From positions 868,001-932,000 of the forward strand of contig NC_135244.1 of the NCBI RefSeq assembly GCF_947623445.1: a DNA stretch of 64,000 nucleotides. The letters run 5' to 3'. The stretch is from Clavelina lepadiformis. Lineage: Eukaryota > Chordata > Ascidiacea > Aplousobranchia > Clavelinidae. The notes below the pieces were generated by a model. That model saw only the letters and a program-made list of their open reading frames with translations. It ran no database searches and had not been told where the DNA came from. This document shows, one piece after another, positions 11,349 through 63,551 of the stretch (within the stretch, counting starts at the first letter, position 1; each line of letters begins with the position of its first letter). A program made the translations under genes and the position numbers.

Positions 11349-11389
11349 TGATGTAGTAGTTGTCTTGTAGTAGTTGTAGTAGTTCAGGC

Positions 11390-12340: not shown

Positions 12341-12535
12341 ATGTCGAAACAGCGGAACTTGTTCAAAGACTCCAACAAATATATTTTTTCTGATCTGTAT
12401 GAAGTAGATCCAGTTGCAAAAATTAAAACATTTTGCATTGATCATTTTGGCTTTAAACATGTAGTGAGTGACTGCTCATATCGACTTTTAGATTCCTTCA
12501 GGTTATGTGAATGTGACGTCATAGATAGATCTTAA
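12341..12535 (+). CDS. Small ORF, unit 2 copy (hypothetical)
   Basis: 64 codons, homologous to the one at 5509 and one codon shorter. No domain recognised. It may not be translated. Confidence 0.22.
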   Translation: MSKQRNLFKDSNKYIFSDLYEVDPVAKIKTFCIDHFGFKHVVSDCSYRLLDSFRLCECDVIDRS

Positions 12536-12749
12536 CATGTTTTGACAAATATGATGGTGGGTTGGAAATTTGTAGAAAATGCAACTCTGCAGACTTCCCC
12601 ATTGTTGTCAAGCATTCCCAATTGTAAGCTTCGAGATTTCCAGCACCAGGTTTAAGTTGATGTTGTCTGAACCGTGTTAACCAAAATTTAATGTAAAATA
12701 AGAAAAAGAATATACTTTAGTTTGGCACGTTTTAAGTTTCACAGTTCAC

Positions 12750-12788
12750 CTGAAGAAGCAAGCTTATGCTTCCGAAAGCTCGTGTCGA
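12750..12788 (+). ncRNA. Hammerhead-ribozyme-like motif (candidate), unit 2
   Basis: Identical to the motif at 5920-5958. It adds no independent support because it was copied by the duplication. Confidence 0.22.
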
Positions 12789-14030
12789 AAAATATAAAGT
12801 TAACCTTAAGAGTGCCAGATTTAAGTTGTTTGATTTTATGGTGTCAAAAACACTAATTTAGAGATTGCTTCTTACAAGCGGCGAAGAAACTTCGGGAAGT
12901 GAAATAACACATCACAGAGCGGACGCATTTGCTCATTTTCATTCATTGAAAGAACCCTGTAGTTGGGTGACCTGTTTGAAGAACAGATTAAGAACATTTG
13001 CCATTAAAATCTGTGCAACAGCTTAACAATAAAGGAACTTGGGTGAGACAAATGCTGTATACATCAGTTTGCATGTTCTTACTGATACATTTTCTTAATG
13101 TCATGGAAGTGAAATCACATTTACACTTTACGGTTTCAGTATTTTTATCCTCAAGAGGGCGCTATATGCAAAAGTACTGTGTTAGCTACATACATTAAAA
13201 CACATTCATATTACTCATTACCTTAATATATTCGCCCCATGTAGTAGCTTATTATTCAATAATTATTTGAAAACGGAGCATTAATGTTTAACGTTTATTT
13301 CATTTTGCGTTAAAAATGTTTAGAATGAAACAACCAGCGCTAAAATCGAGACAAATTCTGTGCAATATCATTTGTCAGAGTATATGACAACAGAATTCAA
13401 AAGATTCTGAAAAAATTCACAGACAACAGAAAAAAAATATTATTTGTTGCAATAATCTTCCATAAATCAAACACAATTGTTCTAAAATGAACTATGCTAT
13501 GCATTAATAAAAATTTTAAGGCATCTAGAGTTACGGTGAAAATATTCCTTTACTTTAAAACATATATTTTTCTATTACAGGAACCATATCGCTTGAAACA
13601 TTTAGAAATCATTTCATGCTTTAAACAGTGCTGGCTCCGTGCTTTGAATACATGATTTTGTTTCTGTGCATGGAACGTTATTTCAATCAACCTGTGTGTG
13701 ATCAATTTGCCTTTAAAAATTGTTAACTCACTTTTTTTTGCGCGAGGCTATTATTGCCTAATTAGTGGTTTTGTGATGGTGACGTAGGCAGAATCCATTT
13801 TGTGCTGGCGCAGGCTGCGGAGCGGTTGTGAAAAGAAATAGTTTCGTTTTGTTACTTGCGTTTGAAGTTGTGTGATGGTTTGGAACCTTTAGAAAGTTTG
13901 CAAAGTTTGAAACTTGCGGAGCCAGACATAAATTAGGATGGGTTTGTCGACAAGTGCTGCAACGCTGGTGTTTGAAATTTTGAGTAGTTAGTTTTAGTTA
14001 AAATGGAGAACAAAAAGTCTGACAGTTTTG
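12789..14030. other. Intergenic end of unit 2 and start of unit 3, no gene seen
   Basis: Shared repeat-unit DNA; the boundary lies at about 13849. Nothing further recognised. Confidence 0.5.
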
Positions 14031-14038
14031 TGATGTCA
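14031..14038. promoter_or_regulatory. CRE-like site TGATGTCA upstream of A3a
   Basis: Unit 3 copy of the sites at 173 and 7195, with TATAAAC just downstream. Confidence 0.35.
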
Positions 14039-14371
14039 TAATCAGGTCGGAGCTATAAACCTCACACCTCAATCTGTTGCTAAAGATTTTACTTTTTACT
14101 TACATACGTTTAAGGTTTGCTTGTGCTGAGAATGCTAGAGCTTTGTAATTTTTTAATAAACTTTTACAATATTGCTTCTTTAGAAAACTGAGTTCATAAT
14201 CATGTCTGATCATATTCAGCAACAAAACAGAAACTTTATTTCTTGTAACAGATGTTACTTAAGTTAAAGTTCTGATTGCGCCGAGTCTGTTAAAAATTAA
14301 GATTTTACGCAAAACGTTTCGTTATTTCCCCCCCGAAACCTTGTTTTGAAGTTAACGAAAAAATCATTGAA

Positions 14372-15405
14372 ATGTGTAAGTCTTTGATGATATATATGTT
14401 GTTGTTGCTAAGATGCATTGGTACTAAATTTTCTAGTACTAGTTGAAAAATTTTACCATTTATTCCCAGCTGTCAATTTCAAACTAATAGAACTAACCAT
14501 TGTGCTTTTTCATTTCAACGGATCTCCATGAAAATTAAGCTCCCAGCCGGTATTCGTCTTGCAGAAATATTATGATCCTTGATTAAAACTTGTGTTTGAT
14601 GTCAAAGGATAATTTTACATTTATTTTAGCAGATAAAATGGAAACGGAACAAGAAACCAGAACGATTTTATCCAACGAACAAATCAAGATACTTGAGATT
14701 GAATATGAACGCAACCCATTCATCACCATTGATAGACAGAAACAAATTGCTGAGGAATTCAATGTGGACATAATTGATATCAGAGAATGGTTTCTTGAAC
14801 GTCTCGCAAATGACCAATATCAAGCCAGAGAGAAAACTGAGCTAGGGCCAAACTCAATTAACCTCAACGAAAACGCTTCGTCAAGCTCATCGTTGTTTAC
14901 AACAGCGACACCTGTGGCAGGACTTCGGTCTGTCGACTCTAGGTTAACTGCAAGTCCTGCAACACATGCGACTTCCTCTGGCTCAAATGACTTCTGCTAT
15001 GATCTTCATTATCCGCACGTGGGCGGGAATTTATCTCATAACCCTTACTTGCCATCCCACCGTAACATGACGTTTCCAAGTGTCGATGGAGTTGGTCCGA
15101 GAAATGTGACGTCACAAGGAAACAGCTCAAGATCTGGCCAAGCTGCTGTTTTCGACCCCACGCTGAGTATGTAATTGTGTAACTTAAAGCTATTGAGAGA
15201 TTTGCTATAAACCAACTGATATTTCTCGATTGTTTTTACTTTAGCAAGTGACCAGCTAAACACAACAATCCAACCTCAGTCTTCGAATCAGCAGGGAGTT
15301 TTGCTGAAGAAAGAAGTCCAACACCTCCGTCGAGGCAGAGTCTTCGAACAAAAGAAATCTTTTATATTATCGCTTTTGATTTCCTTCACTCAAAGGAACT
15401 TATAA
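14372..15405 (+). CDS. A3a: divergent single-homeodomain protein
   Basis: Exons 14372-14375 (ATG plus T), 14630-15166 and 15245-15405 give 233 residues. The homeodomain is at about residues 8-67 with helix 3 WFLERL (Glu51, Leu53). The linker carries SSSSS, then YPHVGG, then the VTSQGNSSRSGQAAV block. The last exon differs from A1a and A2a at many residues yet stays open to the same end (SFTQRNL), which argues that this short last exon is really coding. Presumed nuclear; partner and target unknown. Confidence 0.75.
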
Positions 15406-15500
15406 CTAAAAAGAAAGCTATAGAAGGAGAACACGTTTGGTATCACCGGCGATATCTTTGGATGTGTCTGTCTTACTTGACCGTTTTTTAATTGTTTAGG

Positions 15501-16690
15501 ATGAAGAAGTTTGAAACCAACCGACATGAGCCTGAAACAAGCAGCGCTGCCAATATTATGAAGTATTGGCAAGGAATCTCCGACGAGCAGCATCGAATTC
15601 ATTCCTCCTACCAAGGTCAATCTTTGCATCAACGCCAGGTCAGTGATGACGCAGCAGCTTCATCGTCATATTCTGACCTGACTTCGTTCACCAAATCTGC
15701 ACCAGGTAAATATATTTGGCGATGTTAAAATAAGTTTTAAAATCCAGGTAATGTTTTCCAGTTATTTTTCAGCTGAAGAAATTCCATTTCACTGCCAAGA
15801 TAAAATCGATTTTACAATGAAGCAGCTGGATTTTTTGGAGGATGAATTTTTTTGCTGCGACAGCCCCAACCCTTTGAGATTGTGGTACATTTCTTATGCA
15901 CTCAAAGTACCCGAATGGATGGTTGAACGGTGGTTTGAGATAAGACGCAAATCAATCAAAAAGACAAAAAAGAGAAAGTTTCCAACGTCTGCATCAAACA
16001 CCCAGAGCACAGGTATGTCTCTAGCACAAGCACCGTACGTATGTAGTGATGTATAGGAACGTGTTGAATAATCCTCGTTGCATTAAGGACAAGTCAACGC
16101 GGAAGCAGCAACCTCGCTGCCATCAACAAGCAGCGCCAGTTCTGAACAACTTGCAGAAAGTAGCCAAGGTATTATTTTTGAGATTTAATGACGTGACAAT
16201 TTACATGTTTTACTAATAACCGGGTAAACGTCTACTATATCTAGAAGGGGAACCTGAAAAACCATCCTTGAAGCCTTATGCGTTTTCAGCAGAACAAAAT
16301 GCCGGACTGCAAGTAGCTTATGGTGTTAGTCGCTTCCTCAATAAAGAGAGAACATTTGCTCTGGCAATATATTTTGTAATACCTGTACGACGTGTGGAAA
16401 ACTGGTTTCACAACCGTACCAAGATACTTCGAGCAGCTTACTTAAAGCAGAAGAGACTTGAAAAAATACAACAAAATAAACAGAGTGCTTCAAGCTCATC
16501 GGTGGCAGCATTACCGTCATCACACATCCACAGGCAAGATCCGTCTCAGCATGATGGGAACGAACCGCACTACTTCGATGGAAATTTGATTAACGAAAAC
16601 AACCAATCCAATGAATTGGCTTCACTTGACGTCTATGACGTGATCCATGTCTTAGGTGATCAGCAAGATGACGCCAATGAGCCAATTTAA
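15501..16690 (+). CDS. A3b: two-homeodomain protein, the only one keeping Asn51
   Basis: Exons 15501-15705, 15773-16012, 16088-16168 and 16245-16690, all phase 1, give 323 residues. The acceptor of the last exon has moved by six bases against A1b, dropping two codons but holding the frame. The first homeodomain ends WFEIRRK (Ile51). The second ends NWFHNRTK, so it has Asn51 where A1b and A2b have Thr; the codons are AAC against ACC, one base apart. The rest follows the family: Lys-rich extension, Ser/Ala linker, acidic tail ending DANEPI. Confidence 0.75.
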
Positions 16691-24129: not shown

Positions 24130-25070
24130 TTTATAGATTTCTTCTTAAATTTAAAAGCAAGTTTCCGGGATAAAACTGTCAAACTTTTTGTAAACCTTTT
24201 AGACTTTCAACTTTCCCATCACAGTCAGGACAATCTGAGTCAGCTGAAACTTAGCAACAAAGCTTTCGAGGGATGAGTTGCGTCGCTTAATTTTATACAA
24301 AGTCTAGACTTTTAACTCAGTGACGAACAGAGTCAAAAATTTTACTGTAGTTAAAACGTAACATCTATAACAAGATAAAAAGTTTCGTTTTGTTACTTTT
24401 CAGACCTGATTATGAACTCAGTTTTCTAACGAAGCAATATTGTAAAATTTTAAGAAAAATTACAAGGATTTAACACTTGCAGCACGAGCCAAACTTAAAC
24501 ATACATGCGGTAAACTTAAAATCTGCAAAAACACCACATTGAGGTTAATTATGACGCTGACTGCTTAGATGTGAATAGAATTTTACAAAACTGATCAATT
24601 TAACGTTTTCTTGACTAAATGAATTAATGTTTAATACTTTCAGTAGAAAAATCGTCAACGGTGAAATATTTACAGATAAATACAATTTTCATTTTGACCC
24701 CTTTGCAGGTGAACTGAATTTCAGGTTCCGTGCCAGGTTCCGTGCCAGTAAATAGGAAACTTTCGCTTTCCCAATTGACCTAACTTTTCAAATCTTTAAA
24801 CCTTGTATAATGAAAAAATCTTAAATTATGTGCAATCCACGGTGCGCACATTCACAAACTAAAGAATCCTGAGCCCACACCGCTCGTCGCCAATTAAGTA
24901 ATCAACTAGTCACGGGCATAAAAACGCGTCGTGTAGCTCTTTTAAGGGAGATTGAATACAAGCAGGGAAATGTCGAAAAGTTTGCAAGCACAAAAATGAA
25001 CCAATTATATTTAATGCCGGACGCACACTCAGAAAAAGAGGGAAAATTCTAACTTGACGTGGAACGAAGA
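24130..25070. other. 5' flank of B, no gene recognised
   Basis: AT-rich. Near 24405 a CAGACCTGATTATGAACTCAG stretch, read in reverse, resembles the region upstream of the A-a start codons (near 335, 7355 and 14190). This suggests a shared 5' flank in opposite orientation. Confidence 0.4.
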
Positions 25071-25566
25071 GTGCAATATGATGCAATATGATGCAATATG
25101 ATGCAATATGATACAATATGATGCAATATGATGCAATATGATGCAATATGATACAATATGATGCAATATGATGCAATATGATGCAATATGATACAATATG
25201 ATACAATATGATGCAATATGATGCAATATGATGCAATATGATACAATATGATACAATATGATGCAATATGATGCAATATGATGCAATATGATGCAATATG
25301 ATGCAATATGATACAATATGATACAATATGATACAATATGATGCAATATGATGCAATATGATGCAATATGATGCAATATGATGCAATATGATGCAATATG
25401 ATGCAATATGATGCAATATGATGCAATATGATGCAATATGATGCAATATGATGCAATATGATGCAATATGATGCAACATGATGCAATATGATGCAATATG
25501 ATGCAATATGATGCAATATGATGCAATATGATGCAATATGATGCAATATGATGCAACATGATGCAA
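25071..25566. repeat. 10-bp minisatellite, about 48 units of ATGCAATATG
   Basis: Exact period 10 from end to end. Nine units read ATACAATATG and two ATGCAACATG; the rest are identical. In the left half the variant units fall after runs of three normal ones, hinting at higher-order growth. Each normal unit junction makes TGATGCAAT, the C/EBP-ATF composite site. The long minus-strand open frames across it (one peptide in all three frames) follow from the period and are not genes. Confidence 0.97.
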
Positions 25567-27795
25567 GATCGTAATAGATGCATATAGCGTGGTGGGAACG
25601 GCATTCTTACACTTTTTCTGTTAGAAAGTGCTCTTGAAAATGTTTTTTTTTTGGGGTTTCCATACTTGGCTATTATTTTTAAAAAATGTGCATTTTCACA
25701 CTTCTTTATTTAGCATTAGCAGCCCTGGTTATGTCATACATTCAATTTTATGGATGGTTTTACGTTTGAGCTCTGTGCAGTCTCTGTAACAAAACAATAA
25801 TTGTAACGGGCATAAATACCATTGTCTGCTGAGTTCAATAGAGAGTTATTTGTTTGTTTGACTGCTCGAACGCACGAGAATTTTCGCAAACTTTCCATTT
25901 CCATTTTCAATTTGGCTGAATATTCAATACGCCGGTGTTTAATATTTAATACTCTATCCGCCCTAGCATTCATGTTCTGTTGATTCAAAACCATAATCAG
26001 AATGAAAATTATGACGTCACAATCGGGGGGCAAATGTTGGCATTTAAGTACACTGTTTAAAATCTAAAAACCAAACAGGCCTAATTATTAAAATGTATAA
26101 AAGGTTCTGCGTTTCCAAGGAAACACATGCAGATAACATCTGTTCAATTAAAAAATCATCTTATAATTGGTCAATCATATATTACTGAAAAAACATCAAA
26201 AAAACAATTTTCCATTGATCTCTTTTTCGCTTGAAACATGCTCGAGCACCGAAAACCGCGGTGACGTCACATCCGGTCCCGGGGCAGTTTTTTGAAACAA
26301 TTTTGTAAATAACTCGATAACGAAAAAAGATAGAGAAAATTTGTTAACATTTTCGGAATCAACGTATTCTCAGCGGTTTTTAGCAAACATGTCGAAAATG
26401 AATTCAGTTTCTCTTGAAACGTAAAAGCAATAGCCTTTGATATATTGATAGAGTAAATTATTTTTTTGGTTGGCGTCCATGGATGGTCGGGTGTTTGTTT
26501 GTTATCTAAAATAGCATGTAATTTCGTCATTACTGCGTCATAGAAAATTAAAAACGTGATCTTTTTGAAGCGAACAACCTGAATTGATTATGCTGAAAGC
26601 TGTTACGTAACATTATTAAGTTACATGTTATTTTGCCTGAAACACACCAACCTTGAGATAAATATCAGATAGTTCAATGATTTCTTGCAAATTAACTTCC
26701 CATTGAAGGGCTTTTGTAGCAATTCCTTAAGAAGTGTTTCAATTGTTGACATCGCAATTACTGTTTCCTTTCAAACAACGTTGGGAAACATCCAGGTACT
26801 TTTCCGACCTTTATCAAATAATTTATTATACGCGCATTGTTGAAGTGCAAAACGTATATGGACGGATTACTCAGAAAGTTTTACTATAAATTCTTATTTT
26901 GAAATATACTCGGCTGGTAATCACTTAGTAACGATGAAAGATCAGGTTGAAACACTTTAATCACAACCAACACTTTGTACAGTTTGCACAGCGCAACCTA
27001 ACTTAGTTAACTGTGGTTTAGCTTCAGACACAAATATAAACAGAGCTGTATGTTTGTAAATTTTAACCTGGTATAATCCCTGCTTATGATCGGTCACGTT
27101 CAAAATGTGTTTCTAAAACAAAGCAGGCAAGAGCAGTAGAAAGGAAAAATCAAGACTTTGCTGACAATAAAAAGTGCTCTCCTGCTTTTCTTGGACAAAT
27201 TGTTTTGAAGACGCATTTGCGAGCACTTATGTCTCCTTTTCCCCTTCAATGCACTCTATGAATGGTAATTTGTAGAAAAACGTGCAGTTGAAACTGGAAG
27301 TATGCAAAAATTCAAAAGAAAAGAAAAGCTGCCAAAAAGTTAAATGCAATACGGTGCACTGACATTCAAGTAATGAAGAAAGGACATAAAACATTTTCCC
27401 TCGTACTGGAGAAACCCAGACCCAACCAAAGGTAATCTATCTCAAGTCAACACAAGTTCCGTTGACAAGTACATACTTTTAAAAATGTTAAAGTTGCTTA
27501 AACTTTCTCAAACCTCAAATCGTTTGCCGATAAAAACTTGGCTTGAATATTGTTTTGATGAAGGTTGACTGCGATAAAAAAATGCCAACTTTTAAAATAA
27601 ACCGCAAAAAGTGCTTTAACTCAAACAATCTAAAAATCTCACAGAATTGCAAACTTTTAAAAACTAATCAGGTTACCTCTAAATGAAATGATGGTGAACC
27701 TACAAACCACTAGTGGTGTAAACCATGCAGTCTCAATCAAGGCAGCCTTTCTTAAATGAAACAACAAAACTGAAATGCTGCACGTGATTGCGGTC
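25567..27795. other. Intergenic, with two TGACGTCA sites
   Basis: Perfect TGACGTCA at 26012-26019 and 26262-26269; the second lies in a small GC-rich island with CCGCGG, CCGG and CCCGGG. From about 26.95 kb the DNA resembles the flanks at 28.95, 30.75 and 34.4 kb, so it is a copy of the family 5' region. No gene seen. Confidence 0.45.
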
Positions 27796-41501: not shown

Positions 41502-44500
41502 ATGTGTAAGTACATGTTTGAGATTAGTTATACATAGTATTAATATTTTATAATTCTTTTTACACATTTCATTCGGAAAAAAAGTAACTTTGCTATGGAA
41601 GATTTTAATGTCGTCCAAGTTAAAGAGCGAACATTAATTTCAACTTCACTCTGTGCCAAAGTTAAAGTTTCGTTAATTTTTGCGCAAATCATTATGCTTA
41701 GTGCTGAGTGGAACCAAGTTATTACTTCTACGACGTGACTATTTCAAACTAAGTAAATCATGCAGCCTGTTGTTAAAGATATGGGGTTAAGTAATAAAGG
41801 TGGTAATTTAAAAAATTGATCAAAGTTATTTAAGTTTTTATTGGAGTTTAATTTTTGTTCGTGGTTGGAGCTAGGTTAGGTTTAGGTTAAAGGCAACAAG
41901 AGGGTCAGAAAAATAGCTTCGAATTTTCGAGTTTTTTCGATGAAGTAACGATGGTCTTAAAAAAAGGTATCAAAAAAATTCTGGCGAATAGAACAATAAA
42001 GTTACCATCCGACGGCAAGTTAAGTTTTGTTTTCTTGCAATTTCGTATTTACATTGCAACCAGTTATTATTGAAATATAAATTCAAATCTCAAATGATTT
42101 GATTGAAATATCCGAAGTTGGACACTTTCACACGGCATTTTGTTTTTCTATTTTGATGATTTAACGTCGCTTTCATTGCGTAGATTATTATGCATGTAGG
42201 CCTACACTAAAAAAGCATCAATTCGACAATAATCATAGCGCGTGTTCGCGCAGCTGTGAAGTGATCTTCCATTCGCATATCGGTGAAACGTTAAAACGGA
42301 TTTTTTGAAAGGTTTTATTTAACAATTTCAATTTGAATCTGCCCGAAAACAGTCCGATTAGGTCGAGTCTAACGGCTCCATCATATATGGAAGTACCTAC
42401 AAGCTATTAGCTCAGTTCCAAGCAAATATTTTTCAATTTCATCGTTCTCTTGGTAATGTGTGATGGAATTAATGCAATTATTTTTTACTCGAAGCTTTAA
42501 CATTTATATTCAGCGAAAGAAACAAACTACAACCGGAATATAGGAATTCAGTTTTCCAACGATGTTGAGATGGGTTTGGAGGAAGCTTTCCGAAACAACG
42601 AAACCATCTCTTTTGCGCTGATGGCCGCACTTGCACAAAAATACAACTTGATGTTTATTCAAGTTGATGGATGGTTTGAAAGCCGTAAAAGAAAGGTCCG
42701 TAAAAGAAGAATAGGTTACGGCAGACAGAAACATGATAACGCAAACGTACTCGAGGAATATGCGTGGTCGAATACTTCTGCGGTGAACTTGCCTCAACAA
42801 GCAGGAAATGGGTTGACTTACAGGCCGTGGAATACAACAGTGAGTTAACAAGTCTTCGAGAGGTTTGTTGTTAATTAGAACGATTTCTCGAAAAAGAAGT
42901 TATTGCGCAGATTCAACCTCAAAATACTTCTTAGCACAACACGTTGCCTCAAAGAAGTTACCACGCAACTAATCTAGTCGCAAGTTACCACGATCGTCGC
43001 CATAAGAGATCACAACTTAAGTCACCAGCTGTGACGTCAACCTCAAGCATGGCTGAGGCCACTCAAGGTGAGGAGGAAATCACCAGGTTATAACCTTGAA
43101 CGCTAAGAAATAAAGTTAAAGATTTAATCAAATAAACTTTTAGTTGCATTTAGTTCAAACATTAAACTGAGATATCACGTATTCTCTGTCTTTTCAGTGG
43201 AGCAAAAAGATAGGAAACGCCGCAGTAATTACTTTCCTAAGGAGACAGTACAAGCTTTATTCGGAGAATACCGTAGAAATCCTATATTGGATCAACAAAG
43301 AACGCAAATACTTGCACAAAGATATGACATGACAGAGTTTGAGGTTAGAAACTGGTTTCACAAGCCTTGGTCAAAAAGAAGAATGGCGATGCCCTTTCGA
43401 CGGAATGACACGATGAATTATTTCCGGGCTGGTGCAGCAATGTCTTCATTGAACATTCCACCGAACCCCATTATTGGACGACATGAAAGGGCTGCACCGT
43501 TTACCAGTTATCATGAACCATATTTCACAGCATATACACAGGGTAATAACTTCGGCTTAATGAAAATTGTATAAGAGCTGGAGAAGGAAAGCATTCAAAA
43601 TTCTAATTTCTCTTGCGGATTGAAGCCCATAATGTTTGTTAATTTCTCTTTCAGCTCATCGAGTTTCAACAACACCAGCATGTACATCCGGAAATAATCC
43701 CAGAGACAAACGCAGAACATCGATGAGCTTCTCCCCCCGGACACACAATCCACATCAACCTGGTATTAGCGGCGTTAGGAGTCTTGGTGCCCATGGCTTT
43801 GATCAACACCAAATGAATCGTTGCAGTGATCAAACTCAATGTAAACTTCCTCGCTTGAGAAATGCAACACAACTGGCTCAAGGTGAGAGGAATGTGCGCC
43901 TTCCTTTTAACGAATTTCACCAATACAATCAACCTGGCCCTAGTGGATATGGAAATGTATCACGACATCCACAAGAGGGCAGTGTTGAACGTCAACCTTA
44001 CTCATTCAACTTCGATGAGATTTACGAACAACACAATCAGCCTGGCCCTAGTGGATATGGAAACGCATCACGACATCCACAAGAGGGCAGTGTTGAACGT
44101 CAACCTTATTCATCCAACTTCGATGAGTTTTACGAACAACACAATCACCCTGGCCCTAGCGGATATGGAAACGCATCACGACATCCACAAGAGGGCAGTG
44201 TTGAACGTCAACCTTATTCATCCAACTTCGATGAGTTTTACGAACAACACAATCACCCTGGCCCTAGCGGATATGGAAACGCATCACGACATCCACAAGA
44301 GGGCAGTGTTAAACGTCAACCTTATTCATCCAACTTCGATGAGTTTTACGAACAACACAATCAACCTGGCCCTAGCGGATATGGAAATGCATCACGACAT
44401 CCACAAGAGGGCAGTGTTGAACGTCAACTTTACTCATCCAACTTCGATGAGTTTTACGAACAACACAATCAACCTGACCCTAGCGGATATGGAAACGCAT

Positions 44501-46757
44501 CACGACATCCACAAGAGGGCAGTGTTGAACGTCAACCTTACTCATCCAACTTCGATGATTTTTACGAACAACACAATCAACCCGGCCCTAGCGGATATGG
44601 AAATGCATCACGACATCCACAAGAGGGCAGTGTTGAACGTCAACCTTACTCATCCAACTTCGATGAGTTTTACGAACAACACAATCATCCTGGCCTTAGC
44701 GGATATGGAAATGTATCACGACATCCACAAGAGGGCAGTGTTGAAAATCAACTTTACTCATCCAACTTCGATGATTTTTACGAACAACACAATCAACCCG
44801 GCCCTAGCGGATATGGAAATGCATCACGACATCCACAAGAGGGCAGTGTTGAACGTCAACCTTACTCATCCAACTTCGATGAGTTTTACGAACAACACAA
44901 TCATCCTGGCCCTAGCGGATATGGAAATGCATCACGACATCCACAAGAGGGCAGTGTTGAAAATCAACTTTACTCATCCAGCTTCGATGATTTTTACGAA
45001 CAATACAATCATCCTGGCCCTAGCGGATATGGAAATGTATCACGACATCCACAAGAGGGCAGTGTTGAAAATCAACTTTACTCATCCAGCTTCGATGATT
45101 TTTACGAACAACACAATCATCCTGGCCTTAGCGGATATGGAAATGTATCACGACATCCACAAGAGGGCAGTGTTGAAAACCAATTTTACTCATCCATCTT
45201 CGATGAGTTTTACGAACAACACAATCATCCTGGCCCTAGCGGATATGGATATGTATCACGACATCCACAAGAGGGCAGTGTTGAACGTCAACCTTACTCA
45301 TCCAACTTCAAAGAGTTTTTAGACCGATACAGTCAACCTGGCCCTAGCGGTCGTTTCAGAGGGTCACATTTTTGTAAGTCTCCTTCCCATGGTATATTTA
45401 ACATTTATTGTTATAATCTAATTGCTTTTCATCGATGCCCGCTAGCCGATATTCATTCATCATGATTTGCCGTTAGAAGCTGTTATTACGCTCTTGATAA
45501 GCGTAACTCATTGATAACCAACTCAATCAATGCTACTCTCATAAATATATGAATGCCTGTTTATGATGTATTTAAAGTAGATGAAAAACGTTTAATGTAT
45601 CATAACAAATTAAATTTTTTTTATTATATTTTTATTTAAAAAAAGGGCCTAAAGCAGATTTTGAAAAGGTTTTTAAAGCAGCTTTTCATTTTTTTTAAGC
45701 TGATATGACCGGGAAGCCGTACCCCAAAGCATATTTTAACAGGTTGGAAGAAGAATTCGTGCGAAACAAATACCCCAGGTACAAGAAGATAGAAAAACTA
45801 TCAAGAGAAACTGGTCTTACCATTATTCAAATTAGAAGGTGGTTTTACCACCAACGTAGAAAAGAAAGACTTGGCATTGGAACACGTTCGTCATCTAGCA
45901 AGGAACAAGTCGGCATCGCCCGTAAGTACAGCGAAGGCGCTTCGTCCAGGTCATCGGCTGTAGAACAAGTGGCAAATGTGTCGGTAAAATTGGGGAGATC
46001 AAATTTTCACCACAGTGCAACAAATGTTGACAAGAACAAAGGCTGCCGTGAAGGAGACGAAGTGGATCTTAGCAAAACAAGTGGAGCTGCCAGTAATTCA
46101 AGTCAGCCATTAGTTCAAGAAGTTGTACAAAATATTTCTTCAAATCCGTCTTCTACCCATCATTTGAAAACAAGATCTAGCGCTGGAAACCAACTTAGTC
46201 GACCGTCTACTTCATTTATGGTTTCAGAACGGTCTTGGGAAAGTGAAAGAGGTGACATGGATGAAACAGATTATGTTGAAGAACCGAATATCGACAACGA
46301 AAGCAAGTGCAACAGAGAGGAGCTATCAAGCACACCGCTGGCAACACCGCCTTCATCCCCCCACACCTATGACTCTCAGGAGGACGAAAACGAGCCAAAG
46401 TACGACCGTGAAGTTTTGCAGATGTGCATGGATGTTGCCCGTGAAAGTGGAGGAGTCGCGGACTACGACAATGAAGCATGTACGTCACAGCAGAGTGGAA
46501 TTGTGATTCACGACATGGGTTTGGATCAACCAATCCAGTCGTCTGGTTCGTTTATGCTTTCAGAGCCATCTCAGGATAGAGAAAGATTGAATGACTCACA
46601 GAATTCCACCAGGAACCCGCAAGAAAAAGAAGAAAACAAACAGAGCAAACGTCACGCGCCATCAGGTTCGTCGGAAGTGACGTACGTGGTAGGATCGCCG
46701 GAGTTAATGGGAGATGGTTTCACTGAAGATGCATGCTACTCTGTACACAAGTGTTGA
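41502..46757 (+). CDS. E: large three-homeodomain protein with 36-residue repeats
   Basis: Exons 41502-41505 (ATG plus T), 42514-42839, 42935-43067, 43198-43542, 43655-45373 and 45700-46757 give 1194 residues with every junction in phase. Homeodomain 1 is at residues 8-67 (GWFESRKRK, Ser51). Homeodomain 2 is at about 160-219 (NWFHKPWSKRR, Lys51 and Pro52, a proline inside the recognition helix). Residues 367-834 are thirteen 36-residue repeats rich in Tyr, Phe, Gln, Asn, Ser and Pro, each with PGPSG and SRHPQEGSV. Homeodomain 3 is at about 843-902 (RWFYHQRRKE, His51, Gln52), then a Ser/Glu-rich C-terminus. The repeats look disordered and could form an activation or condensing region (inference). 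A poly(A) signal lies at 46974-46979. Confidence 0.78.
43945..45348 (+). repeat. 13 tandem 108-bp coding repeats in gene E
   Basis: Period exactly 108 bases, 36 codons. Variation is concentrated at a few positions (VERQP/VENQL, NFDE/SFDD, NQPG/NHPG) and is shared between neighbouring units, as expected from unequal crossing over. All units keep the frame. The PGPSG...SRHP core matches the single-copy motif in B and D. Confidence 0.97.
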
Positions 46758-49726: not shown

Positions 49727-50397
49727 TTATTTCTCAGCGAGACTTGGAAGGTTGTTGTCCGTCGCGGAAGTTGAAGCTGATGTACCATCGCCTCCGGACG
49801 AAACCATTCGATCGTTGGGTGAACCAGTAGACGCGGAGATTATGCCTTGTGACGTAGAAGGTTGATCTTTAGCATTGTAGCTTTCATCTTTGTCACTCTC
49901 ATCACTCGTTTGAAGAAACTTTCCAAAATAACGGGTGACTACAACATCATTCAATAAAGATTCTTTGGTAAACTTTGGTTCCAAAGATGATGCATTACTT
50001 CCTTCCTCTTCGCTGGTGGACTTCAAATCGCCCAATGACTCTCTCTTAGCTTTACGTACACAACGTTCTTTGTAGCGACGGCTCGCGAACCACTTTCCTA
50101 CTTGTTTCTCACTCATGCCAAGTTGTACGGCCAGCTCGGTTTTTCGTTCAGGAGTTATGTAGACGTTCTTTTGAAATTCCTTCTCCAACACTTCCTTCCG
50201 ATCTTTGGAGAGAAATTCCCGTCTTTGGCATCTCTTCATTGTTGCTGAAACAAAATCTGAAGCCAACAAACTTTAACCTTTTCGAACCAAATAGCCTACT
50301 ATTAAGATAAGCAAATAACGTTTTTCCTTAAATATTGCTTCCAAAAGCATCTAAACAACCAAATGCTTGAGTAGTATCTTAACTCACTCTTTTGCAT
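49727..50397 (-). CDS. G: single-homeodomain protein
   Basis: Exons (minus) 50397-50388 (MQK plus one base, GTGAGT donor) and 50244-49727 give 175 residues. The second exon is certain; the start exon rests on its ATG, donor and matching phase. The homeodomain is at about residues 8-67: basic arm KRCQRRE, helix 1 LEKEF, Y25-I, helix 2 KTELAVQLGM, helix 3 GKWFASRRYKE (Ser51). The rest is a Ser/Glu/Asp-rich tail with no known domain. No shared promoter module was found upstream. Confidence 0.7.
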
Positions 50398-51597: not shown

Positions 51598-52958
51598 TCA
51601 ACTAAACAAATGTTCTCTTTTCCGGATATAATAACGCCAATGCAACAAGAGTTGGTTTTCAATGAACTTAACGCTTGGTGAATTTACTAATTCAACTCTA
51701 AATTGCTCGTATTGCAACAACTCCAGCATAGACATGCAATGCGGGTACTTGATGTGCTTCACATATTCTGGCTTCTTCCAATACAGAAGGTACTTGAGGT
51801 AGTTCACAAAGTTAGGCTCCTGAAAGAAGACACAATAGTCTTTTTGGTGTATAAAATTGCTTTCAAACTACAATAACTGACGTAGCATATAGAAATGAAG
51901 TCAAAAAATTTAGTTTTTACGTTTCTTGGCATTTGTAACAGCGATTTTAGAAATACCTTGAAGAAGCCTTTCTGCGCCAAAACGTTCAAGTAGTGTGGAT
52001 TGGCCAAGCATTGAACAAACTCCAGTTCAACCTGGAATCGCACGCGGTCATCATCCAGGTTTGGATTGGGAGGGAGGTTTGGGAGGAGGCCAAGTTTGGT
52101 TTCTGCGGAAGACAGGATTGGTGATTTAATGGCGGCTGATTCGTTGAAGTGTTGACGCGACTTGGTATCCTGGTACGATGGTTGAGGTTGAACCTCCTCA
52201 TTACCGCCCACTTGCGGATCTCGTAAGTTACCAGGATCTACTATGTTAGGTTCAAGTTGATTTGTCGGACGATTAGTTTCGTGAAAGTATTCGGGCAACC
52301 AGTTATGCTGATAAACATAACCTTGCATCTGTGCAATGCTGCACTCTGGCGGTTCGTTTGAGGTACTACCCACGTCATAAGTGTGAAAATAGTTCATCAT
52401 TTCGTTTCCTTCTTGCTGCTGAAGCCACTGATCTTCAAACACAGGCGGCATTGGAGGCAATGGTCTCGTTGGAATGCTCCACGAGGCATCTTCGTTTGTT
52501 TTAGCTACTTCAACTTCCAGGTGACTGGTGGACATAGGCCTACAATCATCTCCTCGATCTGCGACAGTCCTTCTTTCTTCTTCGTTTGGAGCTAAAAACA
52601 ATGTCTGATACACTGGTAGGTTGCGCTGTACAGAAAGTTCTGCGTTTCTTTTTTCAACGACAAAAGGTTCGTTCCTGAAAGCTGCCCTCCTTGCCGATAT
52701 CTGGAGTTGAAATAACTACGGTAAAACTGACGGCAAAAGGTCGCCTTTTTGTGCAATGCTAACCTGGGCTTCTTCTCTGTTTCGATCTGAAAACCATGTC
52801 TTTATCTGGTGTTGGGTGAGGTCGAGTTGCACAGAAAGCTCCACCATTCTTTGGCCACTGAGCTCAGGGTTCTGTTGATATGCTTTGACCAAAACCTCTT
52901 CCTGGTCTAGTGAGAATCGTTTGGAACCTGGTCGTTTCCGCGTCGTTACTTTTTCCAT
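51598..52958 (-). CDS. HM1: homeodomain-MED31 fusion protein
   Basis: Exons (minus) 52958-52764, 52700-51957 and 51819-51598, joined in phase 0, give 386 residues. The homeodomain is at about residues 8-67 (KRPGSKRFSLDQ arm, TWFSDRNREE helix 3, Asp51). A long Pro/Asn/Glu-rich linker follows. From about residue 284 the sequence is MED31: RVRFQVELEFVQCLANPHYL, LNVLAQKGFFK at the exon end, then FVNYLKYLLYWKKPEYVKHI, HCMSMLELLQYEQF and HWRYYIRKR. MED31 (Soh1) is a Mediator middle-module subunit. This copy ends soon after RKR (EHLFS) and so lacks the usual C-terminal stretch, and it has more changes (SPSVKFIENQ) than HM2. The fusion would place a homeodomain on Mediator, or act as a MED31 competitor; both are inferences. 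Confidence 0.85.
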
Positions 52959-55122: not shown

Positions 55123-56332
55123 CTAGTCATCGTCTACCGGTTGCATTTGTTGATCATTTCTTTGTCGAATAGATTCCATCAAACGTTGCTGCAATCTAAT
55201 TCTTTTCCTGATATAATACTGCCATTGTAACAACATTTGATCTTCAATGAATTTAGCGCATGGTCTGGTCACCAGTTCAGTTCGAAATTGCTCGTATTGC
55301 AACAGTTCTAGCATGTAGATGCACTGAGGGTACTTGATATACTTCACATATTCTGGCTTTTTCCAGTACCTCAGGTATTCGAGGTAGTTCACAAATTTTC
55401 GCTCCTAAACAAAAACACATTAAATATTTGATGCTTCAAACAAGTTTTGCACAACAATTAACACGTAACTTTAACCATTCCGGCAAACATTAGCAAGCAG
55501 GGAAGCGTTAATGTCATTTAAAACAGTGAAAATGAGAAAAGATTCAAGCATCTAAAAAGGGCATGACAAATAATAGGCTATAACGTAGCCTATGAGTCTG
55601 ATGTTTTTTTTCATGCAAACCAAGCATTCAAAATTGCCACACGCTCAAAATAGACGGGACTGGTAGGCTAAAATAGAAAATTAGCTACTAATAATTTGGT
55701 GACGAAATTAATGGGTATATATCACGGATGATCACTTTGACACCTACCTTAAAATATCTCCTTTGCGCCAAAAAGTTCAAGTAGTGTGGATTGGCCAAGC
55801 ATTGAACAAACTCCAGTTCAACTTGAAAGCGCACGCGGTCATCAGCCAGGTTTGGATTGGGAACTTCCACTCGGGTCGGTTGATATGTTGGGGTCGATAC
55901 GGATTCGAGGTCTTGAGGCGACGCAGTGCACTCGTGAGAGGAATGAGGTTGATTTTCTGCTTCTTTCTCCGTTTGCGGGTCTTGCAGGCTGCTGCTGATG
56001 CCATTGAAATTACAAGGAATAAGGTCGGTTGCGGACGGTAATTCAATCATCCTAGACTCGGAAGTGTCGAGGATTTCTGATGCACTCGCAAGTTCAATCG
56101 ATGAACTGGAGACTTCGCCGCATTGTTCGGGGGCATTATCATCATATCTGCGCTTCTTTCGTCGCCGGTCTTTAAACCATTGCGCAATCTGCTGTTCGCT
56201 CAAGTCAAGTTCAATCGCGAGTTCTGCTTTTCGATAGTAGGAGACGTAGCGGTTGTAGCGGAATTCCTCTTCCAGTGCTGTGTTCTGCTGTGCTGTGAAC
56301 ACCATTTTATACCTATTTTTTCTCTGCTTCAT
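55123..56332 (-). CDS. HM2: homeodomain-MED31 fusion protein
   Basis: Exons (minus) 56332-55748 and 55404-55123, phase 0, give 288 residues. The homeodomain is at about residues 5-64 (KQRKNRY arm, helix 1 LEEEF, helix 2 KAELAIELDL, helix 3 AQWFKDRRRKK, Asp51). A Ser/Thr-rich linker follows. Residues 166-288 are an almost complete MED31 (123 of about 131 residues): RVRFQVELEFVQCLANPHYL, NFLAQRRYFK, then ERKFVNYLEYLRYWKKPEYV, PQCIYMLELLQYEQF, CAKFIEDQMLLQWQYYIRKR and a Gln-rich end. The homeodomain and the MED31 N-terminal part sit in one uninterrupted exon, so the fusion does not rest on a splice guess. The intron after YFK matches HM1 and the MED31 gene at 63 kb. Confidence 0.92.
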
Positions 56333-57264
56333 CCATGCTAGAAAAACAAACAACTTGCTGTTAACGAATGTGTTGTTCACTTTGCAGCATAAATGTCAAT
56401 TTATTCACGTAAAAAAAGTGACCGATCTTTTATCTTGATGAGAACGAAATATTCCGAGCACGTAACAGTAAAAGAATGAATCTGTACTTGCTGCTTTAAA
56501 AATTACCAAACTCTGCCTCACTTTCGCTTCAAAAGCTATTGCTATGCATCTGTTCTACACAATTCGCCTTTAAGGCAACAAGATAAAAATGTTACAAACA
56601 TATAGACAATTGCGACACCATGCTTACTCACAACAGCTTGATAGCTAATCACTTTGTGATTATGCCGTTAGATGTAGTGAGTGTTTTACTTGCAATTTCG
56701 TGAAAAGGCAGTTACCAGATGATGTAATATAGTAAACCGAAGAATCCCGTTGCAAATGTAACCACATTTGGAAGAAAAGCTGTTACCGAAAGACGTCACA
56801 ATGCGTATGTGCTGCTTTAGCAGAGATATGACAATCAGTAACGGACAAGGCATGGTTGGAAAAGAACGCTATGATAAACGTTGTCTTTCATGGTTTGGGA
56901 ATTACGTACACTGAAGTTTTATAAACGTCATGCAAGCCATCATTGCATTTGTAGCACAAATTTACGCGAACATTTTTAAGCGTAGTATGGCGCACAAATT
57001 TGTGTTTATACACCAAGCAAAGTCAGAACGGTAGACTTCATAAACATCCAGATGACACCAAAACCAACATACTAACAAAATAGAGAGCACTTCCGACAGC
57101 CATACGTTTGCATTATTGCGTGTTACAGACAGTCCCACCAAACGATTACCTATACAGTAGTAATGCATATAATGCCACAACTCACCAACGTCTTAGAGCC
57201 ACCAAGTAACAACGTGAAATGAACACCTGCAATTGCAAAAAACGTTTCAAATACGAGTGTGCAG
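56333..57264. other. 5' region of HM2
   Basis: A GTGAGT donor at about 57185 (minus) ends a likely 5' UTR exon, and a pyrimidine-rich acceptor lies at about 56340. No other gene recognised. Confidence 0.45.
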
Positions 57265-57459: not shown

Positions 57460-60400
57460 ATGCTGAAAAAGTTAACAGACATTTGTGTGCTGGTATTCAA
57501 TATTTTCCTTGCTATTATTCGAGCAATTATCAAGTAAGTAATAAACTTCATACTTTAAACGACGCATTACCAGTAGCTTAGACCTATTGTTATTGGCATC
57601 ATGAATACAGGAACTGATTTGTGAAAGAAGTTCTTTATATACTTCAGTAATGTCATCTTTTTTTGGCAAAACACGGGTGATGAAATTATTATGCCAAGGA
57701 GAAGTGAAACGTTTGGTCACCGCTACTCAGATATTTAAATAATATAATATATGCTGTAATGAAATTGTGATGTATGTGACATTGAACTTGACACGTCGAC
57801 CCACTTCACTACAATGTTTGCGAGTTGAATTGTTTATTGCGGTCGATGGTATATGAGTCTCATAAGGTCGTTGTCTGCTTTTCTCAACCTCAGACTTAAT
57901 TGTTCACCTTAACGAATTATTGTTTTATGAAGCTGACAACGAAGTTGTCTAACTTGATACTGAACTTCTTCAAATCGAATTTAATAGTAGTTTCACAGGA
58001 ATAACAACTCCATAAACTGAATATATTGAAGCTTCTTTGAAAGATAACATTCTTACAAATCATTTGCACAACAACAACATAAAAAAACTCTATGTTGCAA
58101 TTCTCTTAGTTAGCGAATGAATGAAGACCGAATAAGTCAGGCAATATATAAGCAGGAAGTAATGGATTACGTCGCGCAGTGTTATGCTTTGCTGATTCGA
58201 TATTTAAAGACGAGAGTTTTATATCTTATTTAATCTGTATATTACATTAATTACAATATCATCACAATGCATTACTTTTCAATTTCTACATACGTCATAT
58301 TAAGCCTTTAGTTTCATTCAGTCTTGAGCTTAAATTTCAATGCAACTTAGCTTTGTTTTTAATTCAACTTGTTTAAATTGTGTATTTGCGGTATAACAGA
58401 TGTGTACTTGAGCTTTTGGCGGAGTTGATCACGCTATAATCTGTCTTGATCTTAGATTTGTATAAGTCTGTAATGACCGACTGGAAATTATAGCAGTTTA
58501 TGATGAAACATTGTGCGTGCGAAGACACAAATTTTGGCGTGATGGCGTGCACTAGCCTAATGCCCTAATTTTTTATTTATTATAAGTCGGCATTCAAACA
58601 ATCAATGTTACATGATTTGTTTACTGTGAATTGGTGTTACCTTGCAAACGTTTGGCATGCATGTTTATGATTCTTATGTGTTCATCTGCCACACTTTCCA
58701 TTAAAATATTTCTGCTATGATCACGTTTTTCAGCCTTAATTGTTCTACGTAAAATATGATATGAATTATATAATTATCATTATTGTTAATATTTTCATAA
58801 ACATCAACATAATTCTTCATCTCCACAATTATGATAAAGAATAAAAATTATTGAATGATCTTCCATATGAAGATCAAATATTGAGGAATATTACGTCATA
58901 ACCTTATCTTTATTACCTCATAATCCTTCTTAATTAGGTCTTCATGTGCGGGAGTGCTGAAGCATAAGATACCCAAAATATTGTTTTATATATATATCAT
59001 ATTGTTTGTTTCTTACCCCTGTTACCCATATTTGTAACCTTGTGCTGTTTGTATATATATGATATTTAGGCTATGTTATTAACTAGGGCTGGGAGCTACC
59101 TAGCGGCTTAAATGCCTGGAAAATGAGGAATTTGTTTGCTATCACCAGAAAAGGTACTTCTAGGAAAGATTGTGGGGCAAAATTTTTTATTACTCCATTG
59201 ACTGACGAAAATTTTATGACACTGTAGAAGCTCCCAGCCCCACGGCCACCTAGTACAGATATTTCCTTCAAATGGAACCAGTCTTACATTTTAGAACACT
59301 TGCGTACCGGCAAATTTTCTTGTGGTTAATATTAAAGTAAAGATTTTTAAAAGCATATTCTTATAGGATTGTCTGGTCTCCAACCGAAAAGTCCATCCAT
59401 GGCGAAGTGGCTCTGGTGACAGGAGCTGGGCACGGCATGGGACGCTTGCTTGCAGTTAAACTTGCACGGCTTGGAGCGAAAGTGATTGTATGTGATGTAA
59501 TTTCTAAATATTTAGTCGTTAATTTTTAAAGTTAATTGACTTATCATGCCTCTGATGAATGTAGCAACATTGCAAAAATTACTTAATTTTAGACATTTTG
59601 GTGTAAAGCCCTTGGCTGAATTTGCGAGATGTTCTGACAGTGATGTGCTTTATTGTTTGGTGACTCGCTATTAGCAAAAACTGTGTTGTTTGAAGGGTTA
59701 GCTTAGTTAAGAAGTACGGTATCGTTTTTTTTGTTAACTCACGAGACAGCATTGAGCAAAAGTGACTGTTTATTTTGAATACTTAAAATGCGTTTCTGCA
59801 TTTTAGCAGGGATATGTTTTAAGCCTGTTTACAGACTGCATTGTGTCACAAAATTACTGCCTGTTTCTCACCGTTAATATGACTATGAAGTCAGTTCAAA
59901 ACTGTGGCGGTTTTTAATTCATATCACAACTAATTTAAAATCTTTTGTCTATTTACTCATAATTCATTGGTTTATGAACCAGCCAATAGCCTTCTGGTTC
60001 TTTCGGGCCATTGTTTACATCTACTCAAAAGAAAAACAAGTAAAATACGTTCAGGACTACTTATCAATAACATGCAGAAATATTTATAAAAAAGTGTATT
60101 TTCCACGAAGCAAAATTTAGAAAGGTCTAACGTTGCAGCTGTCGTCAGGTAAAGTGTCTTAGAGTTTGTGGTTTGCGGACTCTTGTGATCTAGAAATGCT
60201 TTAGTTTTTGACCGAACAGCTCAGGTGACAACATTTTTATCAGTGTTTTAGTTGCTCATGTCAAATTATTTATATATTTGAAGGTTGTTGACATCAATAG
60301 ATCTACAAATTTTGAGACCGCAGAGATCATAGAAGGTTCAGGTGGTACAGCTTACAGCTATACATGCGACTTGAGCAAAGCAGATGAAATCAAGAAGTAT

Positions 60401-61671
60401 TTTCCTAAATATATACAATCGTTGTGTTATTGCAGGGGTCACCAAACTACGGGTCGAATCCGGCAATTAAATTGGTTTGTCCGGACCACCTCTCTGTGCC
60501 ACAAATGAGCACAGAATGAAGGGTAACCTGTGGAACAATGGTTGGTTGTAATGCTCAAGTGGCCCTTTGTGAAAAAGTTTGGTGCCACCTGTGGATAGGT
60601 TGAGCAATATAGTGATTAATGCTCAGCTAAAGTATAAAATGTCCCTCATCAATTTATTCTGGGTTCAAAATCTTTCCACAATTTGCAACCTTGTTTATAA
60701 GATATGAACTATATATTTCATACATTATATTATATAACCCTAATTTGTAATGTACTGCCGTACAACTTCTCATTGGCTGCACTGATTCCAGTATTATATT
60801 GTTGACAGTCTTGCAAAAACAATTAAGGAAGAAGTTGGAGAAGTAACAATGCTCATCAACAACGCTGGAGTTGTTTTCAACACAGATTTTCTTTCATTAA
60901 CCGACGAAATGGTAACGACCACCTTCAATGTTAACGTCATCTCACACTTCAGGGTAAATACTTGCCAATGTTTCATGTCTACTGTGGATTTCACAAATAA
61001 TCGGTTGTCAAATTTAAAGTTGATTAGAGAGTTTCTTCCTGATATGAAGAGAAAAAATCATGGTCACATCATTGCCATGGCATCTATATCATCAGGGACT
61101 GCAGCACCAGGATTTATTGATTACAGGTGAATAAATATTTATATTACAACCAGTAATTAGGTCAGACAAGAAATTTCAGTATTTTAGCAGCTTTAATTTA
61201 TTTCAGAACAAATTATATTTACATAATTTTTTGCAAGTTCAAGCAAGCATGCTGTAGCGGGTTTAATGGATGGTTTGAGACGAGAATTACGTTGGGAAGG
61301 AAAGAATGGCATCAAAACGACCTATGCTTGCCCACCCTTTGTCACTACCGGCTTCGTCAAAAACCCACAAACCAACTCCTCCCTTATGTGTCCGGTACTT
61401 CCCCCAGAGAAAGTTGTTGATGAAATAATGCATGCGGTATTAATAGAACAACCTCGTGTCGATATTCCGCCTATCGGACCTGCCATGCTTCTCAAGTAAG
61501 TGAGCTTAATGCCATGATCATCTGGGTCTTTTGTTTTGAGTTTTAAATTTGAAATGTTTTTTCTTCTTTAGGGCGATATTACCAGATGAAGTAATTGAAT
61601 TAGTCTTTGACTTCATAAAACCAACATGCAAAATTCTGTTTCCCAAAATGAGTGAAAACAAAAAGCTTTAA
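57460..61671 (+). CDS. SDR16C-type short-chain dehydrogenase (HSD17B11-like)
   Basis: Seven exons, 57460-57533, 59367-59487, 60284-60396, 60809-60953, 61020-61126, 61238-61495 and 61572-61671, close in frame to 305 residues, the normal size of this family. Residues 1-25 (MLKKLTDICVLVFNIFLAII...) are the expected N-terminal membrane/lipid-droplet anchor. The cofactor motif is TGAGHGMGR, with VVDIN after beta 2 fitting NAD(H) preference. NNAG is present as LINNAGVV, and the catalytic pair as YSSSK, made across the exon 5/6 junction. CPPFVTTGF and the GLMDGLRREL helix also match. Known relatives oxidise steroids, retinol or fatty alcohols; the substrate here is unknown. It shares a promoter with HM2. 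Confidence 0.93.
57534..59366 (+). other. SDR intron 1
   Basis: 1.8 kb intron. Holds the candidate MITE at 59086; otherwise nothing recognised. Confidence 0.6.
59086..59240. mobile_element. Candidate MITE with inverted ends
   Basis: GGGCTGGGAGCT at the left end and AGCTCCCAGCCC at the right end are exact inverted repeats 155 bases apart, flanked by CTAG on both sides at slightly different distances. No coding capacity. The superfamily is unclear. Confidence 0.5.
60433..60591. mobile_element. hAT-type MITE in SDR intron 3
   Basis: The left end CAGGGGTCACCAAACT and the reverse of the right end CAGGTGGCACCAAACT match in 14 of 16 bases. The interior TACGGGTCGAATCCGG is typical of hAT non-autonomous elements. 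The 8-bp flanks (TGTTATTG and TGGATAGG) no longer match well, so it is old. It is 159 bases long and makes no protein. Confidence 0.85.
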
Positions 61672-63236: not shown

Positions 63237-63551
63237 CTATGTATCGGGGGCAGGGCGTTTTCGGGCAGGTGAAGCATCAGTTGCAGTTTGCAATTGTTGA
63301 TCATTTCTTTGTCGAATAGATTCCATTAAATTTTGCTGCAATCTAATTCTTTTCCTGATATAATACTGCCAGTGTAACAACATTTGATCTTCAATGAATT
63401 TAGCGCATGGTGTGTTCACCAGTTCAGTTCGAAATTGCTCATATTGCAACAGTTCTAACATGTAGATGCACTGCGGGTACTTGATATACTTCACATATTC
63501 AGGCTTTTTCCAATACATTAGATAATTGAGGTAGTTCACAAACTTTCGCTC
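63237..63551 (-). CDS. MED31, last coding exon (gene runs off the window)
   Basis: 104 residues beginning ERKFVNYLNYLMYWKKPEYV, then PQCIYMLELLQYEQFRTELV, CAKFIEDQMLLHWQYYIRKR and a Gln/Pro/Lys-rich end. The acceptor TTTTTTTCAG lies just upstream. The matching first exon (RFQVELEF... part) is not in the remaining 449 bases, so it lies beyond 64000. MED31 is a conserved Mediator subunit that helps pass activator signals to RNA polymerase II. This copy has the cleanest sequence of the three, so it is the likely canonical gene. Whether it too has a homeodomain upstream cannot be seen. Confidence 0.88.
   Translation of the reverse strand, partial: ERKFVNYLNYLMYWKKPEYVKYIKYPQCIYMLELLQYEQFRTELVNTPCAKFIEDQMLLHWQYYIRKRIRLQQNLMESIRQRNDQQLQTATDASPARKRPAPDT

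Follow-up and report, generated by a model that had tools for sequence, protein, structure and literature searches.

A homeodomain–MED31 gene model in a divergent homeobox cluster of the ascidian Clavelina lepadiformis

Gene models at the locus

The DNA considered here is a stretch of 64,000 nucleotides from chromosome 5 (OX392443.1) of the colonial ascidian Clavelina lepadiformis, C5:868001-932000, referred to as the window; positions without a prefix count from its first letter. Its central feature is a minus-strand gene model, HM2, in which a homeodomain, a linker and MED31 (SOH1, PF05669), a subunit of the Mediator middle module, follow one another in one reading frame. An earlier note on this DNA had proposed such a fusion, and searches with the homeobox and Med31 profiles agree with it. 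The open reading frame (ORF) from stop to stop, 56395-55688 (235 residues), carries a homeodomain match (PF00046, 6.2e-12, residues 28-83; 45.6 bits against a curated cut-off of 22.9) and the start of MED31 (PF05669, 8.2e-11, residues 188-216, profile positions 2-30 of 95), also above the cut-off. A second ORF, 55404-55123, contains profile positions 32-94 of 95 (6.8e-22). Across the two exons, the Med31 profile is thus covered over nearly its whole length.

The exon model joins 56332-55748 to 55404-55123 and gives 288 residues, spliced from the ATG at 56332 to a TAG stop. The homeodomain exon (55748-56337) consists of a Cdx-like homeodomain with K50 and D51 (56147-56314; C5:924147-924314), a linker of 104 codons that is open in frame and rich in G+C (55835-56146), and the first part of MED31 (55748-55834; C5:923748-923834). 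It is followed by a 343-bp GT-AG intron of phase 0 (55405-55747; donor AAG/GTAGGT, its first base at 55747, acceptor TTTAG/GAG) and by MED31 exon 2 (55123-55404). The place and phase of this intron are identical in all four MED31 copies of the genome, and the expectation that HM2 shares its intron position with a MED31 exon at 63 kb was borne out. The latter is a MED31 exon, but does not stand alone: it is exon 2 (63237-63551, minus strand, PF05669 7.8e-24) of an unfused copy, C, whose exon 1 lies just beyond the window at C5:932064-932210.

The 5' end given earlier, 56332, is an in-frame ATG, but translation may in fact begin elsewhere. Just upstream of it, a candidate acceptor (GTTTTTCTAG; also written GTTTGTTTTTCTAG) ends with base 56338; it precedes the frame by two bases and the start of the homeodomain profile by 12 residues. 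Of 34 homeodomain exons in the surrounding cluster, 31 have a best-scoring acceptor of the same phase, a count that rests on a simple score of our own, sometimes low, and on many tandem copies that are not independent. Many of these exons have no Met ahead of the homeodomain. In HM2, the in-frame ATG is preceded, four bases upstream, by another ATG that is out of frame. Because the upstream acceptor is strong and has the phase typical of the cluster, HM2 probably has a further 5' exon. In the model, Met occurs before exon 2 at residues 1, 10 and 95, while the MED31 core starts at 164. In the frame as it stands, any MED31 would therefore include some or all of the linker, unless its start came from a further exon. 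The Met at residue 95 could begin a linker–MED31 protein, and splicing within the exon is compatible with the DNA alone; it is therefore conceivable that two genes share this DNA, with the homeodomain exon spliced elsewhere, MED31 produced from the linker or another exon, and the full fusion protein not made. This arrangement is decidedly improbable, as no stop separates the domains, the fusion needs no extra splice sites, several neighbouring homeodomain ORFs likewise continue as long open frames past the homeodomain, and the start of MED31 itself is gone.

The linker resembles coding sequence. Stops make up 861 of 13,588 codons in three nearby stretches taken as non-coding, and the probability that 103 linker codons remain open by chance is 0.0012, or 0.013 at the linker's own base composition. 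At 50.2%, the G+C content of the linker exceeds that of the intron (34.4%) and of the upstream (37.6%) and downstream (27.9%) sequence. This level is reached by only 4 of 3186 linker-sized sliding windows, three of which overlap the linker and the fourth of which lies in another homeodomain ORF. A chance ORF was rejected on the basis of this openness and G+C contrast. The last 12 or so linker codons derive from the MED31 N-terminus (YQPTRVEVPNPNL, compared with MNQPTRLEIPKPNL in unfused copy D).

The genome scanned comprised 209.06 Mb in 95 contigs. A genome-wide search with PF05669, in which all 14 candidates were scored, yielded eight exon matches that form four genes within about 17 kb (C5:919,631-936,715): HM1, HM2, C and D. 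HM2 has a companion among them: HM1 (52958-51598, minus strand) is a second homeodomain–MED31 gene model, of 386 residues and three exons (52958-52764, 52700-51957 and 51819-51598). Exon 1 (52764-52958) encodes a homeodomain with S50 and D51 (PF00046 1.3e-10). After a predicted intron of 63 bp, exon 2 (51957-52700) encodes a degenerate second homeodomain-like stretch, a long linker and the MED31 start (PF05669 4.2e-10). Exon 3 (51598-51819; genome match C5:919631-919855) encodes the remaining MED31 with a shortened C-terminus. The homeodomain-like stretch of exon 2, at 52700-52570 on the minus strand, reads AAFRNEPFVVEKRNAELSVQRNLPVYQ...APNEEERR and, by eye, is degenerate and without the WF core. 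Copies C and D are unfused, and on these matches the genome has two unfused MED31 paralogues. Copy D, on the plus strand at C5:935970-936844, has diverged strongly at its C-terminus; by sequence it is paired with HM1.

The second fused copy also bears on the possibility that an assembly error joined two genes, which the earlier note had named as grounds for refutation. The basis is one assembled haplotype. The join, however, lies inside an open exon of about 590 bp in a HiFi-based assembly with 117-fold coverage and a quality value of 67.4, as reported in PMC10884593. With HM1 also present, such an error is extremely improbable.

The MED31 segment starts with YQPTRVEVPNPNLADD in HM2, MNQPTRLEIPKPNLADD in D and MNQPIMPGLEVPKPNLADD in C, and in a DNA self-comparison the similarity between HM2 and copy D ends four bases past the A of D's ATG. 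On this alignment, the join is at about the old MED31 start codon, which is now gone. Over 101 aligned codons, the synonymous divergence (dS) and the ratio of nonsynonymous to synonymous divergence (dN/dS) are 0.21 and 0.21 for HM2 and C, 0.22 and 0.24 for HM1 and D, and 0.86 and 0.14 for C and D. By these distances, HM2 goes with C and HM1 with D, a pairing that favours two fusions or later gene conversion. By eye, PKPNL in C and D corresponds to PNPNL in both fused copies. Per 100 residues, 76 in C, 72 in HM2, 69 in HM1 and 68 in D are identical to the human MED31 chain. Of 46 MED31 positions identical between human and S. pombe, 41 are retained in each of C, HM2 and D and 39 in HM1; the 41 of HM2 are the same as those of C. 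With the iterated homeodomain profile, at the thresholds used, no homeodomain remnants were found upstream of the unfused copies in the part of C5:838001-943000 beyond 924395, where they might have pointed to an ancestral fusion. A scan for other fused domains in nine further ORFs of the window returned six homeodomains above the cut-off and one just below; of the remaining two, the repeat-rich ORF matched nothing but repeat-type entries and the other was without any match.

The homeodomain and its divergent cluster

The iterated profile, run over C5:838001-943000, reveals a divergent homeobox cluster of 35 profile rows, two of which are halves of a single homeodomain split by a stop. Residue 51 is visible in 33 rows, and is Asn in four and another residue in 29 (D 5, S 5, I 5, E 4, K 3, T 3, F 2, R 1, H 1); HM2 and HM1 both have Asp51. 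W48 and F49 are present in all 33. The genome-wide homeodomain search, in which 150 of 192 candidates were scored, gave 132 matches, and 58 of these, lying outside the cluster and reaching helix 3, served for comparison. Asn51 is present in 48 of them; the exceptions are five that we take to be ceramide-synthase-like, three that belong to a second divergent group, located at C5:1.20-1.25 Mb, and two others. The difference is pronounced (Fisher p = 3.8e-11), but this value does not count independent losses because the cluster members are related. According to PMC2211742, Asn51 was invariant in an analysis of 346 homeodomains. The same paper describes human SEBOX, which has Lys51 and might be non-functional, yet is kept as a functional, divergent gene.

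Further observations concern the composition of the cluster and of the second group. Plus-strand tandem units (726-16690 in the window, and C5:847473-864013) recur several times and mostly contain three different homeodomain exons in a row, starting with LSNEQ, FTMKQ and FSAEQ; they represent either three-homeodomain proteins or gene triplets; 17 of the 21 homeodomains with a visible residue 51 are without Asn51. In the second divergent group (C5:1200390-1252208), three of eight homeodomains are without it. Adjoining homeodomain ORFs, a plus-strand ORF of 610 residues at 43633-45465 consists largely of 36-residue repeats, built on a 108-bp unit in 13.2 copies with 94% matches (43921-45350). 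Its QPGPSG-like motifs recur in the tails of other cluster ORFs.

Among PDB relatives of the HM2 homeodomain, the lowest E-value belongs to an engrailed tandem construct (6.4e-17), whose two domains score about 33 bits each. Of those with a single domain, CDX2 and CDX1 chains rank first (1.7e-14 to 7.1e-14; 54.6-56.5 bits), followed by Hox-B1 at 3.7e-11. The genome has its own Cdx at C1:10847967-10848134, which matches the CDX2 chain at 52 of 57 residues, and this is the homeodomain closest to that of HM2 (47% over 60 residues; 50% over 50 columns). In a tree of 65 rows and 50 columns, Cdx is nearest to HM2 by path, and HM2 falls in no strongly supported group. Cdx is also the best match of the neighbours at 49.7, 33.3, 28.1 and 38.3 kb (58, 48, 45 and 40%, respectively). 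The first of these is a minus-strand homeodomain ORF with S51 and without MED31 (49727-50272; 58% over 50 columns). For a few other cluster members, Cdx is a weak or tied best match (31-38%), and the best match of HM1 is not Cdx. HM2 and several of its minus-strand neighbours therefore look Cdx-derived by sequence similarity, a claim that does not cover the whole cluster. The upstream intron was also considered as proof of Cdx descent, but it lost weight because at 8 of 15 loci beyond the cluster, one of them Cdx, the best acceptor precedes the frame by two nucleotides and the profile start by 9-13 residues.

Compared with caudal/Cdx proteins, the tail of the HM2 homeodomain is joined to MED31, and, by eye, K5, Q47, K50, D51 and R54 stand in place of R5, I47, Q50, N51 and A54. 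These five positions presumably have DNA-contact roles in homeodomains. Helix 3 keeps W48 and F49 (WFKDRR) and is very basic. As judged by these positions, the fold residues and the basic face are kept and the base-reading residues are lost. With Asn51 and the Cdx base readers lost, the HM2 homeodomain is most likely not reading Cdx sites.

The earlier note saw in HM2 a DNA-binding-type domain built into Mediator that would bypass the usual contact with activators. The architecture and the 41 of 46 kept MED31 positions accord with the first part of this statement; Asp51 and the changes at residues 5, 47, 50 and 54 do not. If the homeodomain were DNA-specific after all, it would bind particular sites and bring Mediator through the built-in MED31, making HM2 a natural activator-bypass protein. 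The intact homeodomain profile, the retained W48/F49 with a very basic helix 3, and the conserved MED31 part are all compatible with this reading. There is also an experimental precedent, since basal factors tethered by a DNA-binding domain, such as LexA-TBP and TFIIB-RFX, activate yeast promoters with Mediator present (PMC3834807). These artificial fusions resemble HM2 in placing a DNA-binding-type domain covalently on a part of the RNA polymerase II machinery. They differ in that they were engineered, with a functional DNA-binding domain attached to a general factor, whereas HM2 is natural and combines an atypical homeodomain with a Mediator subunit (PMC3834807). The presence of Asp51 in HM2 weakens the idea of a DNA-binding domain that bypasses activators; HM1 shares this residue, 29 of 33 cluster homeodomains are without Asn51, and the other contact residues differ from those of Cdx. 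A natural bypass is consequently improbable.

Selection on the fused copies

The explanation considered best, though held with slightly less than even confidence, is that HM2 is a real, young chimeric gene, whose MED31 part enters Mediator and whose homeodomain mainly makes contacts with protein or non-specific contacts with nucleic acid. A rival is that HM2 is a young, non-functional by-product of a fast-turning tandem array: the frame would still be intact solely by virtue of its youth, and the gene would be silent or dispensable. Selection on the MED31 part was examined with a codon model that has one omega per branch. For the HM1 branch, omega is 0.16 and a value of 1 is rejected (likelihood-ratio test (LRT) statistic 4.92, p = 0.027). 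Fixing the HM1 and HM2 branches both at 1 gives p = 0.07, and omega does not differ between fused and unfused branches (p = 0.41).

None of the eight differences between HM2 and C falls on the 41 positions kept in both (of 92 positions; p = 0.007), and one falls on the full set of 46 (p = 0.03). Neutral evolution was also simulated in 4000 runs for each setting, with an assumed indel rate of 0.05-0.15 per substitution. Depending on that rate, 1-8% of runs preserved an HM2 frame without stops or frameshifts when the branch length was the one fitted with omega = 1; with the length of the free model, 0-2% did so.

Several results weigh against a functional chimeric gene with this role for its homeodomain. 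The HM2 branch itself has an omega of 0.55, from which a value of 1 is not rejected (LRT 0.38, p = 0.54). If only HM2-derived changes are considered, that is, the four at which C still equals human, none falls on the kept positions, which is not significant (p = 0.09). When stops alone are counted, the simulated neutral frame survives in 22-23% of runs at the omega = 1 fit length, the shortest used, and in 9-10% at the free-model length. The cluster has at least one broken member, a homeodomain split by a TAG at C5:859022-859177, and the exon expected upstream of the HM2 acceptor was not found. Homology between the HM1 and HM2 linkers is unconvincing, since 20 of 5000 shuffles reach the score and one other cluster ORF equals it; the age and single origin of the fusion are for this reason unproven. 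Finally, the lost Asn51 does not prove a loss of DNA binding.

A non-functional by-product would agree with an HM2 branch indistinguishable from neutrality, with a dS from C of only 0.21, and with an origin in a divergent tandem cluster that includes broken sequence. Against it stand the intact splice sites and 288-codon frame, the low survival of such a frame in simulations with indels, the coding-like composition of the linker, the absence of HM2–C differences at the 41 positions kept in both, and the adjoining HM1, whose MED31 branch rejects neutrality. On balance, the by-product explanation appears unlikely, though its probability is not negligible. A functional but relaxed young gene is favoured by this pattern of change, without being proved by it.

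Possible roles in Mediator

In the proposed origin of the chimeric gene, a Cdx-like homeobox gene within a fast-turning tandem homeobox cluster acquired a MED31 duplicate at its tail, with the junction close to the start codon of that MED31. The predicted product is a homeodomain, a flexible linker and a complete MED31 domain. HM2 agrees with known MED31 in its nearly whole domain, its 72 identities per 100 with the human chain and an intron common to the unfused copies; it differs in the lost start codon and in the preceding homeodomain and linker of about 104 residues. On the evidence of conservation, the MED31 part would most likely fold and be capable of replacing MED31 beside MED7 in the middle module of Mediator. 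Docking into Mediator is plausible because HM2 keeps 41 of the 46 positions shared by human and S. pombe, and competition with normal MED31, which the earlier note had suggested, is possible. According to PMC12985170, MED31 and the MED7 N-terminus make up a submodule of the middle module, which also contains MED19, a subunit that binds Hox homeodomains (PMC12985170, PMC4770211).

Where HM2 is expressed, its protein would most likely join Mediator via the MED31 domain and give rise to a variant complex with a tethered, atypical homeodomain. The latter may serve as a module for protein interaction or for non-specific contact with nucleic acid, for example near the MED19 site for Hox homeodomains, and could occupy or block the Hox–MED19 contact. 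While the architecture, the intron, the cluster setting and the lost Asn51 are read directly from the DNA, expression, entry into Mediator and the role of the homeodomain are inferred. The two situations are alike in that a homeodomain is brought to the Mediator middle module, but the contact of Hox proteins with MED19 is non-covalent, whereas that in HM2 would be covalent (PMC12985170, PMC4770211).

A more far-reaching alternative is that Clavelina has an alternative Mediator, in which MED31 with its own homeodomain, taken up by a rapidly evolving homeobox locus, provides tissue- or stage-specific, hard-wired targeting, or blocks contacts between Hox/Cdx proteins and Mediator. It would be a natural counterpart of the activator-bypass experiment, with a homeodomain that possibly reads nucleic acid without Asn51. 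This alternative is unlikely, though its probability is not negligible.

The chimeric-gene explanation would have consequences beyond this locus. The usual route of transcription factors to Mediator consists of reversible contacts, from which a covalent homeodomain–Mediator gene would differ. If real, it would offer a test case of whether bringing Mediator suffices for activation in an animal, as well as a case for new regulatory proteins born by fusion within tandem homeobox clusters. A cluster that loses Asn51 in 29 of 33 members and keeps W48/F49 in all 33 also raises the question of what a non-standard homeodomain does.

To our knowledge, no fusion with a Mediator subunit is known among the fast-evolving mammalian homeobox genes Rhox, Dprx, Argfx and Sebox. 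These genes are otherwise comparable, as Rhox forms a many-gene cluster and SEBOX has Lys51; a difference is that they are treated as PRD-class in PMC2211742. The novelty of a homeodomain–MED31 fusion is provisional, the genome search having covered C. lepadiformis alone among tunicates. None is described in the titles and opening abstracts found for MED31 together with homeodomain or homeobox, a scope outside which most subscription papers and bioRxiv lie, or in the term-matched text of PMC4770211, PMC12985170 and PMC6562869. In the Clavelina homeobox literature, the main text of PMC8704543 contains neither 'cdx' nor 'caudal'.

Two further features of the window complete the description of the locus. 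Between HM2 and unfused copy C, exons of a short-chain dehydrogenase-like gene were recognized by eye on the plus strand (59341-61499). On the minus strand at 24910-25709, long frames consist mostly of a short repeat (HHIASYCIIL...) that is open in three frames and is probably a satellite rather than a gene.
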